A stretch of DNA of 44,741 nt from Candidatus Oleimmundimicrobium sp. (GCF_030651595.1 NZ_JAUSCH010000129.1:1-44741); one strand, 5' to 3'. Shown: positions 106 to 24,771, counted from the first letter of the stretch. The notes: a model not told the origin generated them from the sequence alone. Numbers and translations: made by a program.

Positions 106-280
106 GCACGGCAGAACTCGCTCCGATAAATCGGAGCTCAAACAGCTTCGGCTCATTTCCCTCACAATTTATTTCTCCCTGCCTGCCGGTAGGCACGGCG
201 CCTAAAAATGATATGGCGTATAAAAAAGCGTGCTCATATGCTTGCCCGCCTGTGGAGGGCCTGCCCGCCTCTGGAGAGTC
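61..280. repeat. cluster of G+C-rich palindromic repeats
   Basis: Two related families of short palindromes lie between the window start and yebC. Family A (core TGCCTGCCGGTAGGCACGG) occurs at about 67-110 and 178-200. Family B (core GCCCGCCTCTGGCGGG, here degenerate) occurs twice at 240-275. A 78-codon reading frame crosses the block but is Pro/Ala/Ser-rich repeat translation with no ribosome binding site, so I do not call it a gene. Other copies occur at 1883, 7604 and inside recJ. Confidence 0.7.
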
Positions 281-14275: not shown

Positions 14276-14299
14276 TCTTGCTTTACGTGGGAGGAGCGG

Positions 14300-17200
14300 G
14301 TGCCACCGAGCAAATACTCATTTTCTGGTAGAAAAATATGGAAAACCTCAATACCTCATTCTGAGGTATGTAATTTACTCTCTAAAGAACTCGGTATCTC
14401 CAAGATTGTTGCCGGCCTTCTCGTAAATCGAAATATTACTTCATCTGAAGAAGCGAAACTATTTTTATATCCTTCTTTATCTCATCTCAACAATCCCTTT
14501 TTAATGTCAGGAATGTCGCTTGCGGTAAATCGAATAAAAACAGCCATCTCAAAAAATGAAAAAATAACTGTTTACGGTGATTTTGATGTTGACGGGATTA
14601 CCAGCACGGCTCTCGTGGTTTCGGTGCTGAAAAAACTTGAGGCAGATGTTAACTTTTATATTCCAAGTCGCTTTGAAGAGGGTTACGGCTTAAATAAATC
14701 GGCTTTAAAAAAATTGGAAGAGGCCGGCTCCTCTTTAGTCATAACCGTAGACTGCGGCATTACGGCTATAGAGGAAGTTGATTACGCCTCAAAGATTGGC
14801 TTAGATATTATCATAACCGACCACCACTTGCCCGGAGAGAACATTCCTAAAGCATTGTCGGTGATAGACCCCAAGCAAGATGTCCGCGTGCCGGATACCG
14901 GTCTGCCAGCCTGCCGGCAAGCACGGCGATATCCTTATTCGGAACTTGCGGGCGTGGGAGTTGCTTTTAAACTTGTTCAAGCGTTGTGTGAAGACTTGAA
15001 TGCTGACATAAAGTTTGATGATAATCCAGAGGATTATCAGCTTTTGACTGATAATCTGGATTTAGTTGCTCTTGGAACCGTTGCCGATATGGTCCCTTTG
15101 TCGGGAGAAAACAGAGTAATTGTAAAAAATGGTTTAAAAATTTTAAACGCGACAAAAAAGCCGGGCTTAATTGCCCTTAAAGAAGTTTCGGGTCTAAATG
15201 ATAAGGAAATTACAGCCGGACAGGTTGGGTATTGGCTGGCTCCTCGCCTGAATGCCGGAGGCCGTATGACGAATGCCGGCAAGTGTGTTGAATTGTTATT
15301 AACCGAGGATATTGAGTTTGCGAAAAAAACTGCTAAGTATTTAGATGAAAAAAACAAAGAAAGACAGTCGATAGAAGAAAAAATATTAAATCAAGCCCTT
15401 GAAATGGTTGAAAAAGAAGTAGATTTGGATAAAGAAAAGGTTATAGTCTTGGCGTCTGAGAATTGGCACGAAGGGGTTAAGGGAATTGTTGCGTCGAGAC
15501 TGGTTAATAAGTATTTTCGTCCAACAATCCTTTTTAGCATTAAAGGCGATAAAGCTAACGGCTCAGGAAGAAGTATTTCAGGGTTTCACCTTTTTGATGC
15601 TTTAACTAAGTGTGATGAGTTTTTGGAGCGCTATGGTGGCCACGCTTGCGCTGCCGGCCTTTCGCTTTCGGCGAAACATCTCGGTTCCTTCAGAGAAAAA
15701 ATAAATCAAATAGCAAGTGAAACGCTCGATGAATCTGACTTGATTCCTAAATTATCCATAGACTTGGATTTACACATCTCTCAAGTTGATAAAACCTTAT
15801 TAAAAGAGATTGAGTTGCTCTCACCTTTTGGCATCGGAAACCCAACTCCGGTTTTATCTTTAAAAAATACCTTATTAAGCAATTTGAATTATGTTGGGGA
15901 TGGAAAGCATTTAAAATTTTCAGTTATCGGAAATGGAACAAGCATCTCAGGTATCGGTTTTAATTATTTAAAGGATTATCCAAAGGATAGTTTTGAAAAA
16001 GATTATCAGCCGGTAAATGTCGACTTGGCGTTTACACTCGATAAAAATAAGTGGAACGGCCGGGAAGAATTGCAGTTGAAGCTGGTGGATTTAAAGATTC
16101 TTAAAGAAGCAACGAAACTGCCTGCCATCGGAGGCAGGGATGATTTTGTTGAGAAGCTGTTTGCCGATGCGTCTGAAATAATCAAGGATGAGGATTATAA
16201 AAATATAGGTGACGCGGATTCTTTCTACTCCAAAGTTGCCGGAGTTACATTTGAGGGGCGCCAGGCTATTTTAGCAAACCTTGAAGCGGGAACTCGTTTA
16301 GATTTAATACGTGAACCGGATAATCCGCATGACGAAAACGCAATTCGCGTAGATGATGAGAATGGAAATAATTTGGGCTACATAAAATCGGCAATGGCTA
16401 AACATCTTGCTCTTGTTATGGATTCGGGCTGCGAATACGAGGGAAAAGTTACTGAAGTTACCGGAAAAGAGGCGGATAAACATCTTGGCGTAAATATTTT
16501 GGTCAGAAAGAAGAAGATTGATGGGGCTATCGAGCAGGGAGCTGTATCATTGGTGCCCGAAGAACTCAAAAATCTCGATAAACCAAAGCTTGTAAACGAA
16601 CTTGCCAAAAGATTTTTAAATGGAAATAAATTGCGCGAGAAGCAGAAAGAAGCGCTTGGAAATTTGTTACAAGGAAAAAATTGCTTGGCGATTATGGGCA
16701 CGGGCAGGGGAAAGTCGGCAATATTTCATATTTTTTCTGCCATTGAAGCCATCAAGGATAACAAAATTTCAGTTATTTTATATCCTTTAAGATCTCTCAT
16801 AAATGACCAGCACTGTTATTTAAAGCAGGTTTTTAGTGAAATTGGTTTAAACGTTGTTTTCCTTTCCGGTGATGTGGATTTTGATGAAAGAGAAAGTATT
16901 TTTGCCGCGCTTGCTTTGGGAGAAGCTCACGTTGTTTTAACTACGCCGGAGTTTATCTATCATAACAAGTTTGAGTTCGATAAATTAAAGAAGAGGATAG
17001 GTTTTTTGGTGGTTGATGAGAGTCATCATGTAAGTACGTCTTCTCAGCTTCACAGGCCGCTCTATGGCCGGTTAAATGAAGTTATAACCTCGATGGGAAA
17101 TCCTTTAGTTCTTGCTATAACAGCTACGGCCGGAGAGACGGTTGCTCCAACTATATATAAAACATTGGGGATAGAAAAGGTTGTTATCGACCCGAACGTG

Positions 17201-18043
17201 AGGAAAAATTTAAGATTAATTGATAAGAGAGGGATAAGGAAAAAAGACTTTTATATAAAAGATGTCATAGCTCAACAAGAGAAGTCAATTATCTATGTGA
17301 ACAGCAGGGAACAGAGCGTTAAAATTGCCTCTGCGCTTAGAGAATCCGTGCCTCATCTGAGAAATAAAATCGTCTATTATAACGCGGGTATGGATTCAAG
17401 CTTGAGGTGTGAAGTTGAAGAAGGGTTTAGGAACGGTGATTTCTTAACGGTGGTATCCACGAGCGCTTTTGGCGAGGGGGTAAATATCCCGGATATCCGC
17501 AACATCTTTCTTTATCACATGCCCTTTAGTTTTATAACTTACAATCAACAGAGTGGCCGAGCAGGCAGAGACGATGAAGAGTCAAATATCCACGTTTTGT
17601 TTGGTGAGAAGGATGCCAAAATAAACAGGTTAATTCTTGAATCTATGGCTCCCTCCAGAAAAGAGCTGGTTAACCTTTACAGGGCTTTGAAGAATATTTC
17701 AAAGGGGTCGCCCGAAGGGTTTGAGCTTACTAATAAGGATATTTTAAGCGAGGTTGAGATTTTCGGCAGAACTTTTTTAAATGAAAAAGGTGTGTCCGCC
17801 GGTCTCAAAATATTTAGAGAATTGGGTTTAGTTGAGGTTTCCGGAAATGGCCTTTCGAGACGAATTAAGCTTTGTGGTTCAAAGGAAAAGCTGTCACTCT
17901 CCGATTCAATCAGACATGAAGAAGGGCAAGACGAAAAAGCGCTGTTTAGTGAGTTTAAAAAGTGGGTTTTAGAAAGTTCGGAAGAAGATTTGCTCTCCAT
18001 GATAAACCAGCCAATTTACCCTAAGGACTGGTTGGAAGGTTAG
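14300..18043 (+). CDS. recJ: RecJ exonuclease fused to HIRAN domain and RecQ-like helicase
   Basis: Residues about 1-600 are RecJ, the 5'-3' single-strand exonuclease: YGDFDVDGITSTA, TVDCG, TDHH, DLVALGTVADMVPL (DHH domain), GSGRSISGFH and GGHACAAGLSL (DHHA1), then an OB fold. Residues about 640-735 match a HIRAN domain (AGVTFEGRQ, REPDNPHDENAIRV, LGYIKSAMAKHLA). Residues about 770-1110 are an SF2 helicase: GTGRGKS Walker A, VVDESHH, AITATA, STSAFGEGVN and QQSGRAGRD, the last being RecQ-like. At 1247 residues it is more than twice a normal RecJ. GTG start with a GGGAGGAG box. About 15 residues near 196-210 appear to derive from an inserted palindrome. It presumably couples unwinding to degradation in recombination repair. 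Confidence 0.93.
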   Translation: MPPSKYSFSGRKIWKTSIPHSEVCNLLSKELGISKIVAGLLVNRNITSSEEAKLFLYPSLSHLNNPFLMSGMSLAVNRIKTAISKNEKITVYGDFDVDGITSTALVVSVLKKLEADVNFYIPSRFEEGYGLNKSALKKLEEAGSSLVITVDCGITAIEEVDYASKIGLDIIITDHHLPGENIPKALSVIDPKQDVRVPDTGLPACRQARRYPYSELAGVGVAFKLVQALCEDLNADIKFDDNPEDYQLLTDNLDLVALGTVADMVPLSGENRVIVKNGLKILNATKKPGLIALKEVSGLNDKEITAGQVGYWLAPRLNAGGRMTNAGKCVELLLTEDIEFAKKTAKYLDEKNKERQSIEEKILNQALEMVEKEVDLDKEKVIVLASENWHEGVKGIVASRLVNKYFRPTILFSIKGDKANGSGRSISGFHLFDALTKCDEFLERYGGHACAAGLSLSAKHLGSFREKINQIASETLDESDLIPKLSIDLDLHISQVDKTLLKEIELLSPFGIGNPTPVLSLKNTLLSNLNYVGDGKHLKFSVIGNGTSISGIGFNYLKDYPKDSFEKDYQPVNVDLAFTLDKNKWNGREELQLKLVDLKILKEATKLPAIGGRDDFVEKLFADASEIIKDEDYKNIGDADSFYSKVAGVTFEGRQAILANLEAGTRLDLIREPDNPHDENAIRVDDENGNNLGYIKSAMAKHLALVMDSGCEYEGKVTEVTGKEADKHLGVNILVRKKKIDGAIEQGAVSLVPEELKNLDKPKLVNELAKRFLNGNKLREKQKEALGNLLQGKNCLAIMGTGRGKSAIFHIFSAIEAIKDNKISVILYPLRSLINDQHCYLKQVFSEIGLNVVFLSGDVDFDERESIFAALALGEAHVVLTTPEFIYHNKFEFDKLKKRIGFLVVDESHHVSTSSQLHRPLYGRLNEVITSMGNPLVLAITATAGETVAPTIYKTLGIEKVVIDPNVRKNLRLIDKRGIRKKDFYIKDVIAQQEKSIIYVNSREQSVKIASALRESVPHLRNKIVYYNAGMDSSLRCEVEEGFRNGDFLTVVSTSAFGEGVNIPDIRNIFLYHMPFSFITYNQQSGRAGRDDEESNIHVLFGEKDAKINRLILESMAPSRKELVNLYRALKNISKGSPEGFELTNKDILSEVEIFGRTFLNEKGVSAGLKIFRELGLVEVSGNGLSRRIKLCGSKEKLSLSDSIRHEEGQDEKALFSEFKKWVLESSEEDLLSMINQPIYPKDWLEG
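14885..14929. repeat. family A palindrome inserted in frame in recJ
   Basis: Positions 14887-14926 start CGTGC and end GCACG and contain CTGCCAGCCTGCCGGCAAGC, closely resembling the intergenic palindrome at 1883-1918 read on the opposite strand. The 45-bp segment adds 15 codons (RVPDTGLPACRQARR) between two RecJ blocks, IDPKQDV and YPYSELAGVGVAFKL, that are nearly contiguous in ordinary RecJ proteins. Confidence 0.7.
16119..16140. repeat. second short palindrome inside recJ, at a domain linker
   Basis: CTGCCTGCCATCGGAGGCAGG is a hairpin-forming sequence like family B palindromes. It encodes LPAIGGRD at about residues 607-614, between the RecJ OB fold and the HIRAN domain. It could be a decayed insertion in a tolerant linker, or chance. 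Confidence 0.4.
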
Positions 18044-18321
18044 TATTATAAACCACCGGTTTAATCGGCCTGCCTGCTGCAGGAAGGTTGCCCATAAATA
18101 ACTCACCGGGTTCTAAAAAGCAAAAAATAATGACTTTTGGCATAGCTGGTCATTGCGAGTGACCGAAGGGAGCGCGGCAATCTCGTAAATAACTGGTCAC
18201 CATTAGCTTTTGGTTGGCAGTTGATAGTATGATTGTTAATTGTGTTTTGTTTTAAACATTTTTAATTTTAAAATATCGTTTTTCATTCTTATTTTTTCAT
18301 TTAAAAAAGGTATCGGGCATG
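18044..18321. repeat. repeat-filled spacer after recJ
   Basis: 18068-18184 is a copy of the composite at 5642-5756: GC palindrome, ATAACTCACCGGGTTC, A-rich stretch, then CATTGCGAG...GGCAATCTC (18149-18184). 18238-18308 repeats the A+T block around GTTTTGTTTTAAAC also present before ruvA. No gene is supported; this stretch marks the left edge of the accessory island. Confidence 0.65.
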
Positions 18322-18507
18322 GAACGTTGTATATTACGAAATAATGCGTATTTTATGGAATTATCCAAAGGATAATCGTCCTCTGGACGACATTTATGGA
18401 TTTTAAAGCATTTTATCTACAATTTTCGGGAATTTTTAGAGGGAAACTCTATTCTGACTTGAATTTTAACTGTAGATTGTGGAATTCGGTATATTAATAA
18501 GTTATGC
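18322..18507. repeat. 186-bp direct repeat, left copy
   Basis: Nearly identical in sequence and identical in length to 24586-24771. It contains two small hairpins (ATTATCC-AAA-GGATAAT and CGTCC-TCT-GGACG) and ends GGTATATTAATAAGTTATGC. A similar GTATATTACGAAATAATGC lies at its start, so the element is bounded by a degenerate direct repeat. It has no coding potential. The last ~50 bp recur at 20701-20753 and 22315-22364. Confidence 0.85.
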
Positions 18508-18770: not shown

Positions 18771-18804
18771 TGTTGCTCAAATGTTCCACTTGGAGGTACA
18801 TTCA

Positions 18805-19599
18805 ATGAACAGAAATACAATAAGTGCTTTAAGTCAGAAAGAGGCTGAAATAGTTGCGCGTTTGTCATACGAAGAAAAAGATATTGTAACAGCCAAAGAG
18901 CTTGATTCTTATTTACCGGCTGATTTTCAATATCGACGTAAATTAGTCTATAGTCTCAAGAGAAAACGAATATTAATTCCGATAAAAGGAGGAATTTATA
19001 TATTTGTGCCCTTGGATGCTGTACCAACCGGACGTCGCGTTAGTGAATTTCTTATTCCACCGGTTTTCTTTCCTCAAAATGACTACTATATAGGCTATTC
19101 AACGATGTTTAATTACTATAACTTTACCGATCAGCAATTTCAGACAGTGTATGTGCTCAATACAAGAATTTCCAGGGAAAGGACAATAGCCGGGTTATCT
19201 TTTAAATTTACGAAAATTCCTTCTAAGAGGATGTATGGATTAGAAAAGATAGACATAAAGGGGAGAAAAGTTATTGTCAGCTCAAAGGAGAGAACTCTGG
19301 TTGACCTCATCTATTTTAATAAACCAGTAGGTGGTATTGAGGCTGCCTCGGAAATACTTGAGCGTTTTGTAAAAGAAAAAAAATGTGATATTAAAAAGCT
19401 GGTTGAGTATACCGTGCAATTCTCTAACATCAAAACAAGAAAGCGAATAGGCCTTATTCTTGAGAAAGCGCAGGTTTCCGATTCAGTATTAAAGCCTCTT
19501 GAAAAAAGCGTAAAGGATACATCGCTGATTTCGTTTTCAAATTCTCGCAAAGGAACAAAAAATGAAAAATGGAGAGTCATTATCAATGATCCACAATGA
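18805..19599 (+). CDS. AbiEi-like antitoxin / autorepressor (type IV TA system)
   Basis: The 264-residue product begins with a winged helix-turn-helix region (residues about 10-70, ending in RRKLVYSLKRKRILIPIKGGIYIF), then the AbiEi segment DYYIGYSTMFNYYNFTDQQFQTVYV and ISSKERTLVDLIYF-like sequence typical of AbiEi antitoxins. In the family, the antitoxin represses the operon and counteracts the nucleotidyltransferase toxin. The ATG at 18805 has a GGAGG box. It overlaps the toxin gene by 14 bp. The system can defend against phage or stabilise mobile DNA; its place in an accessory island fits either. Confidence 0.85.
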   Translation: MNRNTISALSQKEAEIVARLSYEEKDIVTAKELDSYLPADFQYRRKLVYSLKRKRILIPIKGGIYIFVPLDAVPTGRRVSEFLIPPVFFPQNDYYIGYSTMFNYYNFTDQQFQTVYVLNTRISRERTIAGLSFKFTKIPSKRMYGLEKIDIKGRKVIVSSKERTLVDLIYFNKPVGGIEAASEILERFVKEKKCDIKKLVEYTVQFSNIKTRKRIGLILEKAQVSDSVLKPLEKSVKDTSLISFSNSRKGTKNEKWRVIINDPQ

Positions 19600-20464
19600 T
19601 AAAGACAAATTTTTTAAATTAATAGACCAGATTGCTTCACTGACGGGTTTTTATGCGCCTCTTATGGAGAAGGATTATTATCTTACGCTTATTCTTTCAC
19701 GAATAAATGAGCTCTCAGAAAATCTTATTTTTAAAGGCGGAACATGCCTTAATAAAATTTACTATTCTTATTATCGTTTAAGCGAGGATTTGGATTTTAG
19801 TATGCGTTTGCCTGAACATACAACTACACGTAGCAATAGACGCAAATGTATACAGCCGGTAAAAGATAACATTAAAAGATTCGCAAAGCAGTTTGGCATG
19901 CGCGTGGATGGAGCAGAAAAAGCGGGACGTAATGAGTCCAAACAGTATATTTATTATTTTGTCTATGATCCGGTAACAACGCCATCAGAGCAAACAATAA
20001 AATTTGAGATCGGACTTCGTTTTAATCCAATTATTAGAACAGAAATGCATCCTGTTCAGCATAAATTCTCACACTCATTTACTAGGGAGCCGCTATTTGA
20101 TGGCGGAAAGGTGAATTGTTTATCACTTAATGAAATTGTTAGCGAGAAACTGCGCGCCGCAGCCCTTAGATTAAGAATCGCACCTCGTGACTTCTATGAT
20201 CTCGATTTCATTCTGCGCAATGGATTTAATTTGGCAAGCAAAGAGGTAATGGAACTTTTTAAAAAGAAGATTGAGGAAGGCGGTGGAGATACGGATTTAT
20301 CAAAATACAGGGTTAATCTTGGGCGATCGGATGAGGAAATTAAAGATATGCGCTCGCGAATTAAACAAGAGCTGTTTGAGGTCTTAACAGAAAGCGAACG
20401 CCAGAATTTTGATCTTGATAAAGCTTTAAAGCGAACTAACAAGGCAATGGAAAGCGTAAAATAA
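19586..20464 (+). CDS. AbiEii-like nucleotidyltransferase toxin
   Basis: The 292-residue product carries the DNA-polymerase-beta-like nucleotidyltransferase signature of AbiEii: FKGGTCLNKIYYSYYRLSEDLDFSM (GG-T and the D-x-D pair) near residues 42-68, and a KLRAAALR.RIAPRDFYDLDFIL block near residue 195. AbiEii toxins transfer nucleotides, in characterised relatives to tRNA. ATG 19586 has a GGAGAG box; ATG 19562 is an alternative. It pairs with the overlapping AbiEi gene. The gene is intact. Confidence 0.87.
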   Translation: MIHNDKDKFFKLIDQIASLTGFYAPLMEKDYYLTLILSRINELSENLIFKGGTCLNKIYYSYYRLSEDLDFSMRLPEHTTTRSNRRKCIQPVKDNIKRFAKQFGMRVDGAEKAGRNESKQYIYYFVYDPVTTPSEQTIKFEIGLRFNPIIRTEMHPVQHKFSHSFTREPLFDGGKVNCLSLNEIVSEKLRAAALRLRIAPRDFYDLDFILRNGFNLASKEVMELFKKKIEEGGGDTDLSKYRVNLGRSDEEIKDMRSRIKQELFEVLTESERQNFDLDKALKRTNKAMESVK

Positions 20465-24552: not shown

Positions 24553-24585
24553 TACTTTTTTAGTATACAAGTTTATGTTTATATA

Positions 24586-24771
24586 GAATGCTGTATATTA
24601 CGAAGTAACGCGTATTTTATGGAATTATCCAAAGGATAATCGTCCTCCGGACGACATTTGTAGATTTTAAAGCATTTTATCTATAATTTTAGAGAATTTT
24701 TAGAGGGAAACTCTATTTTGGCTTGAATTTTAACTGTAGATTGTGGAATTCTGTATATTAATAAGTTATGT
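24586..24771. repeat. 186-bp direct repeat, right copy
   Basis: Same length and order as 18322-18507, including both hairpins and the tail GTATATTAATAAGTTATGT. With the left copy it brackets about 6.1 kb containing AbiE, the orphan cassettes and the RelBE-type pair. No coding potential. Between 24772 and 24881 I see only A+T-rich sequence with ACTAACC-type heptamer-like units. Confidence 0.85.

Follow-up and report, generated by a model that had tools for sequence, protein, structure and literature searches.

Separate RecJ and RecQ proteins resect DNA together with SSB in Escherichia coli and Deinococcus radiodurans, and RecQ is needed for blunt and 3'-tailed ends in this separate-protein reaction (PMC4846377), which bears out the claim of a sequence-only reading of the DNA studied here that the two cooperate as separate proteins. 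In the stretch analysed, 44,741 nt from Candidatus Oleimmundimicrobium sp. (NZ_JAUSCH010000129.1:1-44741, hereafter the window), RecJ, a HIRAN domain and a RecQ-like helicase are encoded by one fusion gene, recJ-HIRAN-recQ (14300..18043, plus strand). Judged from sequence, this fusion is probably an old, vertically inherited single-chain enzyme for the resection of 5' ends.

The gene is a single open frame of 1247 amino acids (aa) with zero internal stops and one terminal stop, and a Shine-Dalgarno-like GGAGG (14290..14294, +), read directly, lies 5 nt upstream of its GTG start. Six Pfam domains, each above its gathering score, were found in the order DHH, DHHA1, RecJ_OB, HIRAN, DEAD and Helicase_C, so that the order RecJ-HIRAN-RecQ-like helicase in one 1247-residue protein, proposed earlier, stands. 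All parts lie on the plus strand. The RecJ part comprises the DHH phosphoesterase domain (aa 88-260, 14561..15079, Pfam 8.7e-25; GDFDVDG 93-99, D151, DHH 174-176), the DHHA1 domain (aa 379-473, 15434..15718, Pfam 2.2e-14; GGH 446-448) and the OB fold RecJ_OB (aa 487-597, 15758..16090, Pfam 4e-25). With these domains and motifs present and 568.7 bits against a cut-off of 396.9 for the NCBIfam recJ equivalog (TIGR00644), the RecJ is complete, as had been claimed. The HIRAN domain (aa 641-731, 16220..16492, Pfam 1.8e-16) scored 60.2 against a gathering threshold of 24.7 for PF08797, and matches the HIRAN of HLTF, to which the sequence-only reading had likened it. The helicase has RecA lobe 1 (DEAD, aa 780-948, 16637..17143, Pfam 9.1e-22), with Walker A MGTGRGKS at 799-806, DESHH at 906-910 and TATA at 941-944, and RecA lobe 2 (Helicase_C, aa 986-1090, 17255..17569, Pfam 6.9e-20), with the RecQ-like motif VI QQSGRAGRD noticed earlier at 1083-1091. 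The C-terminal helical/winged-helix region (aa 1110-1247, 17627..18040) is homologous to the C-terminal domain (CTD) of Bacillota RecJ (PF10141). It has no four-Cys zinc site, since only one cysteine occurs after lobe 2, beyond residue 1110. By Pfam, the window protein gave no match to RQC, HRDC (a winged-helix-like tail being present) or PF10141 (ssDNA-exonuc_C), and neither an SF1 motor nor a PD-(D/E)XK nuclease, the signature of AddAB, AdnAB and RecBCD, was found in it.

Comparison with PDB structures matched the N-terminal half to RecJ of Staphylococcus aureus, D. radiodurans and Thermus, the middle module to the HIRAN domain of HLTF, its best solved relative, and the C-terminal half to RecQ, WRN and BLM. 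Structure prediction, which had been suggested as a check, gave a RecQ-family fold for the helicase half: the AlphaFold model of aa 606-1247 had a mean pLDDT of 86.4, and the 50 Foldseek matches listed for it all belonged to the RecQ family (RecQ, WRN, BLM, RECQL5, RECQ1), the first being DNA-bound RecQ. On its sequence, the fused helicase is a divergent RecQ subfamily, RecQ-like and not RecQ proper.

Residues were surveyed in 61 aligned fusions, the window protein and 60 others. RecJ residues D94, D96, D98, D151, D174-H175-H176 and GGH 446-448 were unchanged in all 61, as were helicase residues K805, S806, D906, E907, H909, R1087 and R1090. At the level of the alignment, then, the catalytic residues of both enzymes are all kept over great divergence, and the window protein is a putative 5'-3' exonuclease on single-stranded DNA. 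HIRAN D678, kept in 61/61, occupies the position of HLTF D94, which we take to be the 3'-OH contact. The position of HLTF Y72, F651 in the window protein, is F in 60 of the 61; in HLTF both Y72 and Y93 have a stacking role (PMC4666394).

A single scan of GTDB genomes gave 470 relatives, and the architecture was read from the best 80, among which each complete open reading frame (ORF) has the RecJ core, HIRAN, both RecA lobes and the C-terminal tail. In Coriobacteriia the fusion was found in 140/149 genomes. HIRAN is missing in about 60 of these 140. Their match starts past it and their ORFs measure about 1100-1160 aa; L046 is one such case, in which Pfam verified RecJ and helicase without HIRAN. 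In the phylum of L117, a metagenome-assembled genome (MAG) titled Bacillota, 28 of 299 genomes gave a match and about 25 of these are intact fusions. Coriobacteriia, and in Aquicultoria the host's family, have the fusion as their normal RecJ; it also occurs in some Bacillota. In the Atopobiaceae MAG UW_MP_ATO4_1 the HIRAN-helicase part occurs twice, on separate contigs (L068, L069), by duplication or a strain mix.

The host is a Ca. Oleimmundimicrobiaceae MAG (Actinomycetota, Aquicultoria), 95% complete with 4.45% contamination, and the named organism closest to it is Candidatus Oleimmundimicrobium americanum (Actinomycetota, Ca. Aquicultoria). Its recombination genes were checked by RecQ, RecO and PDDEXK_1 searches. 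RecO is present. No second RecJ was found in this genome, and it keeps no separate recQ above the family cut-off, a point the sequence-only reading had left to be checked; these absences are not absolute, because the MAG is 95% complete. The PDDEXK_1 search found one protein in it, a single-domain ORF of 378 aa (G000:C107:3141-3857). In this genome and its relatives G001-G003 the sole member found of this family is such a single-domain protein of 378-404 aa, and therefore no nuclease of the AddAB/AdnAB type was seen by the PDDEXK_1 search in the searched genomes of the host family. The gene set, as far as sequence searches go, fits a RecF-type pathway with the fusion as resection enzyme.

RecJ degrades DNA in the 5' to 3' direction and RecQ motors travel 3' to 5'. 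Both thus advance inward from a DNA end on opposite strands, and a tether between them is therefore geometrically natural. In a probable resection enzyme of this kind, the RecQ-like motor would travel inward from a break or gap, 3' to 5' along the 3'-ended strand, peel away the 5'-ended strand and feed it to the tethered RecJ, which would degrade it 5' to 3' and leave a 3' tail for RecO/RecA. HIRAN may recognise DNA ends in the fusion, gripping the 3' end or the edge of a gap as the enzyme loads and aiding initiation; it would be accessory, because many Coriobacteriia fusions do without it. In many Bacillota lineages the motor would have decayed later, with lobe 2 and the winged helix persisting as the RecJ CTD.

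Several points weigh against this resection scheme. The polarity of translocation and the coupling of RecJ to the helicase are borrowed by analogy from RecQ, and the window protein scored 190.7 bits for recQ_fam (TIGR00614), just below the cut-off of 219.8. The position of HLTF Y93 varies in the fused HIRAN domains (Y, H, A or F among the 61), and therefore their binding of 3' ends may differ. Separate RecQ was kept in 6 of 16 sampled fusion genomes, mostly Coriobacteriia, and was present in 13/25 Bacillota fusion genomes versus 90/274 others (p 0.08). The idea that the fusion replaces RecQ as a general rule was rejected, there being no anticorrelation over the 299 Bacillota genomes.

The fusion could instead be a specialist of forks and gaps, mainly remodelling stalled forks and widening post-replication gaps with an HLTF-like use of HIRAN, and not resecting double-strand breaks. 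HLTF, the best solved relative of its HIRAN, is a fork-remodelling enzyme, and a reference cited in PMC4846377 places the action of E. coli RecJ and RecQ at blocked forks. We consider this unlikely, given that the roughly 60 Coriobacteriia fusions without HIRAN have nevertheless kept the helicase, and that no AddAB/AdnAB was found in the host family, so that something else must resect breaks. It could also be that the covalent link brings no mechanistic coupling, RecJ and helicase working on different substrates and the fusion merely setting their stoichiometry. The helicase decays repeatedly while RecJ persists, which would make RecJ independent of the helicase, and one genome (G225) has a separate, intact 657-aa HIRAN-helicase beside a RecJ with a dead helicase. 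This explanation appears quite improbable, however, as the RecJ and helicase cores were co-inherited (14 of 18 splits) and are linked in nearly all Coriobacteriia genomes.

The co-inheritance was seen by comparing the RecJ-core and helicase trees of 21 fused proteins, which had 14/18 splits in common, versus a mean of 0.22 and a maximum of 3 in 500 shuffles; the fusion is therefore old and was inherited as a unit. In the RecJ-core tree, a quick tree with long branches, intact and decayed forms were intermixed, with strongly supported sister pairs such as L147 with L146+L166 (99), L177 with L191 (100) and the HIRAN-less L046 with L113 (99). The simplest reading of these sequences would be that fusion happened once, before these lineages diverged (or once with early transfer as a unit), and that HIRAN or the motor was then lost repeatedly.

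The losses can be followed in the tails of other RecJs. PF10141 is the C-terminal domain of RecJ from Bacillus subtilis and Lactococcus lactis, and a search with it also matched L146, an intact triple fusion from Bacillota, at its C-terminus (E 2.2e-6). Profiles of intact fusions found remnants in most long Bacillota RecJs and in sister family f5 of Aquicultoria, with 0 matches to shuffled tails. The remnants form a graded series: HIRAN and a dead helicase in L207 and L177; traces of lobe 1 in L220 and L178; lobe 2 and tail alone in L147, L201 and L041; the tail alone in L206; and, lastly, nothing or a short RecJ. In L147, an 864-aa RecJ, the tail aligned to residues 967-1221 of the window protein (phmmer E 8e-27), without lobe 1. 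Walker A and DExHH were present in 112/112 triple fusions versus 0/42 decayed or unassigned long forms (classes V, HV and P). Comparison of intact with decayed tails (lobe 2 and C-terminus) by hhalign gave a probability of 99.8 and E 7.7e-30. Of ten small groups taken singly, eight gave 52-98%; the L209/L151 group reached 2.9% and L047 0.2%, and column-shuffled decoys did not exceed 3.3%. Thus for L047, an actinobacterial RecJ tail, no homology was seen by profile comparison. A broader tail profile found S. aureus RecJ 539-739 (E 4.5e-13). The Deinococcus RecJ CTD was not detected by the vestigial-CTD profiles, and HHpred gave its authors no homologue (PMC4663267). The C-terminal extension of many Bacillota RecJs (PF10141, including S. 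aureus) is thus likely, from these alignments, to derive by decay from lobe 2 and the winged helix of the fused helicase, all of these tails having lost Walker A, DExH and motif VI. One genome encodes a standalone 657-aa HIRAN-RecQ-like protein with intact motifs (L161, G225:C1:750342-752267), and its RecJ (L180) has a dead helicase.

Alternatively, the RecJ CTD came first and not from the fused helicase, sharing with it the winged helix alone, or fusions arose repeatedly. The AlphaFold model of a Paenibacillus-like PF10141-type CTD (pLDDT 76.7) resembled S. aureus RecJ (E 6e-9), followed by winged helices, with zero helicases among its matches, and the most divergent tail groups score weakly. 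Even so, a CTD-first history is very unlikely: the less divergent tails, L147 among them, align across lobe 2 as well as the winged helix by phmmer and hhalign, the intermediates L207, L177, L220 and L178 retain traces of lobe 1 or HIRAN, PF10141 matches the intact triple fusion, and the RecJ-core and helicase trees are congruent. The vestigial profile is also in register with WRN lobe 2, though as a weak match (E 0.06). On balance we lean towards RecJ-HIRAN-RecQ as a separate ancient single-chain end-resection helicase-nuclease beside RecBCD, AddAB and AdnAB, one that would predate the split of Coriobacteriia/Aquicultoria from the sampled Bacillota and whose motor would survive as a fossil in the CTDs of Firmicutes RecJs (S. 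aureus, Bacillus).

Three separately assembled relatives from the host family keep the frame unbroken at 85-90% identity, and three more do so at 50-57%, among them a fourth genome of the family (57%) and members of two other families of Aquicultoria. It is likewise unbroken in more than 60 full-length homologues from named genomes, including the isolates Olsenella porci, Parafannyhessea umbonata and Kribbibacterium absianum; this survey for the same domain order, which the sequence-only reading had called for, found it class-wide. An assembly join or chimera of two adjacent genes, for which only the origin in a MAG with some contamination speaks, is therefore rejected as practically excluded, as is a frameshift, the same frame recurring in many independent assemblies and in isolates.

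Upstream of the fusion gene lie queA, tgt, a gene for an HD protein, secD and secF, and downstream, past AbiEi/AbiEii, relA and hisS. The order secD-secF-recJ-relA-hisS is the usual recJ neighbourhood, and the fusion gene is the recJ of the host genome. An AbiEi/AbiEii type IV toxin-antitoxin pair (18781-20464) is located between recJ and relA. The AbiE-containing stretch is flanked by a 188-nt direct repeat, 93% identical (18319-18506 and 24583-24770), which may mark a mobile or recombined segment. A role in defence was set aside, since the gene belongs to the secDF-recJ-relA housekeeping locus, although the AbiE pair adjoins it. Within the gene, a GC-rich palindromic in-frame insert (aa 194-216, 14879..14947, +; core CCTGCCGGCA at 14910) is missing from close relatives. 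Elements like CCTGCCGGCA occur in frame at differing sites in L036 (aa 708-726) and L037 (aa 521-532, 704-715 and 1177-1196), and similar ones at window positions 179-196 and 1885-1902; the in-frame inserts resemble in-frame palindromic repeats such as the RPEs of Rickettsia.

The earlier statement that no characterised enzyme is known to have this architecture agrees with the full-text literature on the fusion, on RecJ in Coriobacteriia and on PF10141, in which no description was found, subscription papers being outside its coverage. RecJ-HIRAN-RecQ is new as a documented architecture; its component parts were already known. RecJ and RecQ are textbook partners whose coupling as a physical complex is hard to see, and here they come naturally fused, an end-binding-type module separating the two. 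As the fusion is class-wide, cultured gut species included, a single purified protein would suffice to test coupled RecF-type resection. The unexplained CTD of Firmicutes RecJ gains a proposed origin from the decay series, which also predicts which of its surfaces are retained.

Among known systems, RecJ and RecQ (with SSB) of the RecF pathway belong to the same two enzyme families, with the expected polarities and presumably the same job, RecQ unwinding letting RecJ degrade the 5' strand (PMC4846377). They are separate proteins, with no direct contact detected between drRecJ and drRecQ (PMC4846377), whereas here they are joined covalently with HIRAN between. RecJs of the Deinococcus, S. aureus and Bacillus type with a CTD (PF10141; PDB 8y30, 5f54) have the same RecJ core, and the Bacillota-type CTD is probably homologous to the fused lobe 2 and winged helix; unlike the fusion, the S. 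aureus/Bacillus type lacks Walker A, DExH, motif VI and lobe 1. HLTF and Rad5 also join HIRAN to an SF2 motor, but are eukaryotic SWI/SNF translocases without a nuclease. WRN (exonuclease and RecQ helicase) and Staphylococcus DinG (3'-5' exonuclease and SF2 helicase, PMC12345164) are likewise fusions of a nuclease with an SF2 motor; theirs are DEDD 3'-5' exonucleases without HIRAN, while the fusion carries the 5'-3' DHH nuclease RecJ. AddAB, AdnAB and RecBCD resemble the fusion by analogy, as helicase and nuclease in one end-processing machine, but they combine SF1 motors with a PD-(D/E)XK nuclease and are not homologous to this pairing of an SF2 RecQ-like motor with a DHH nuclease.

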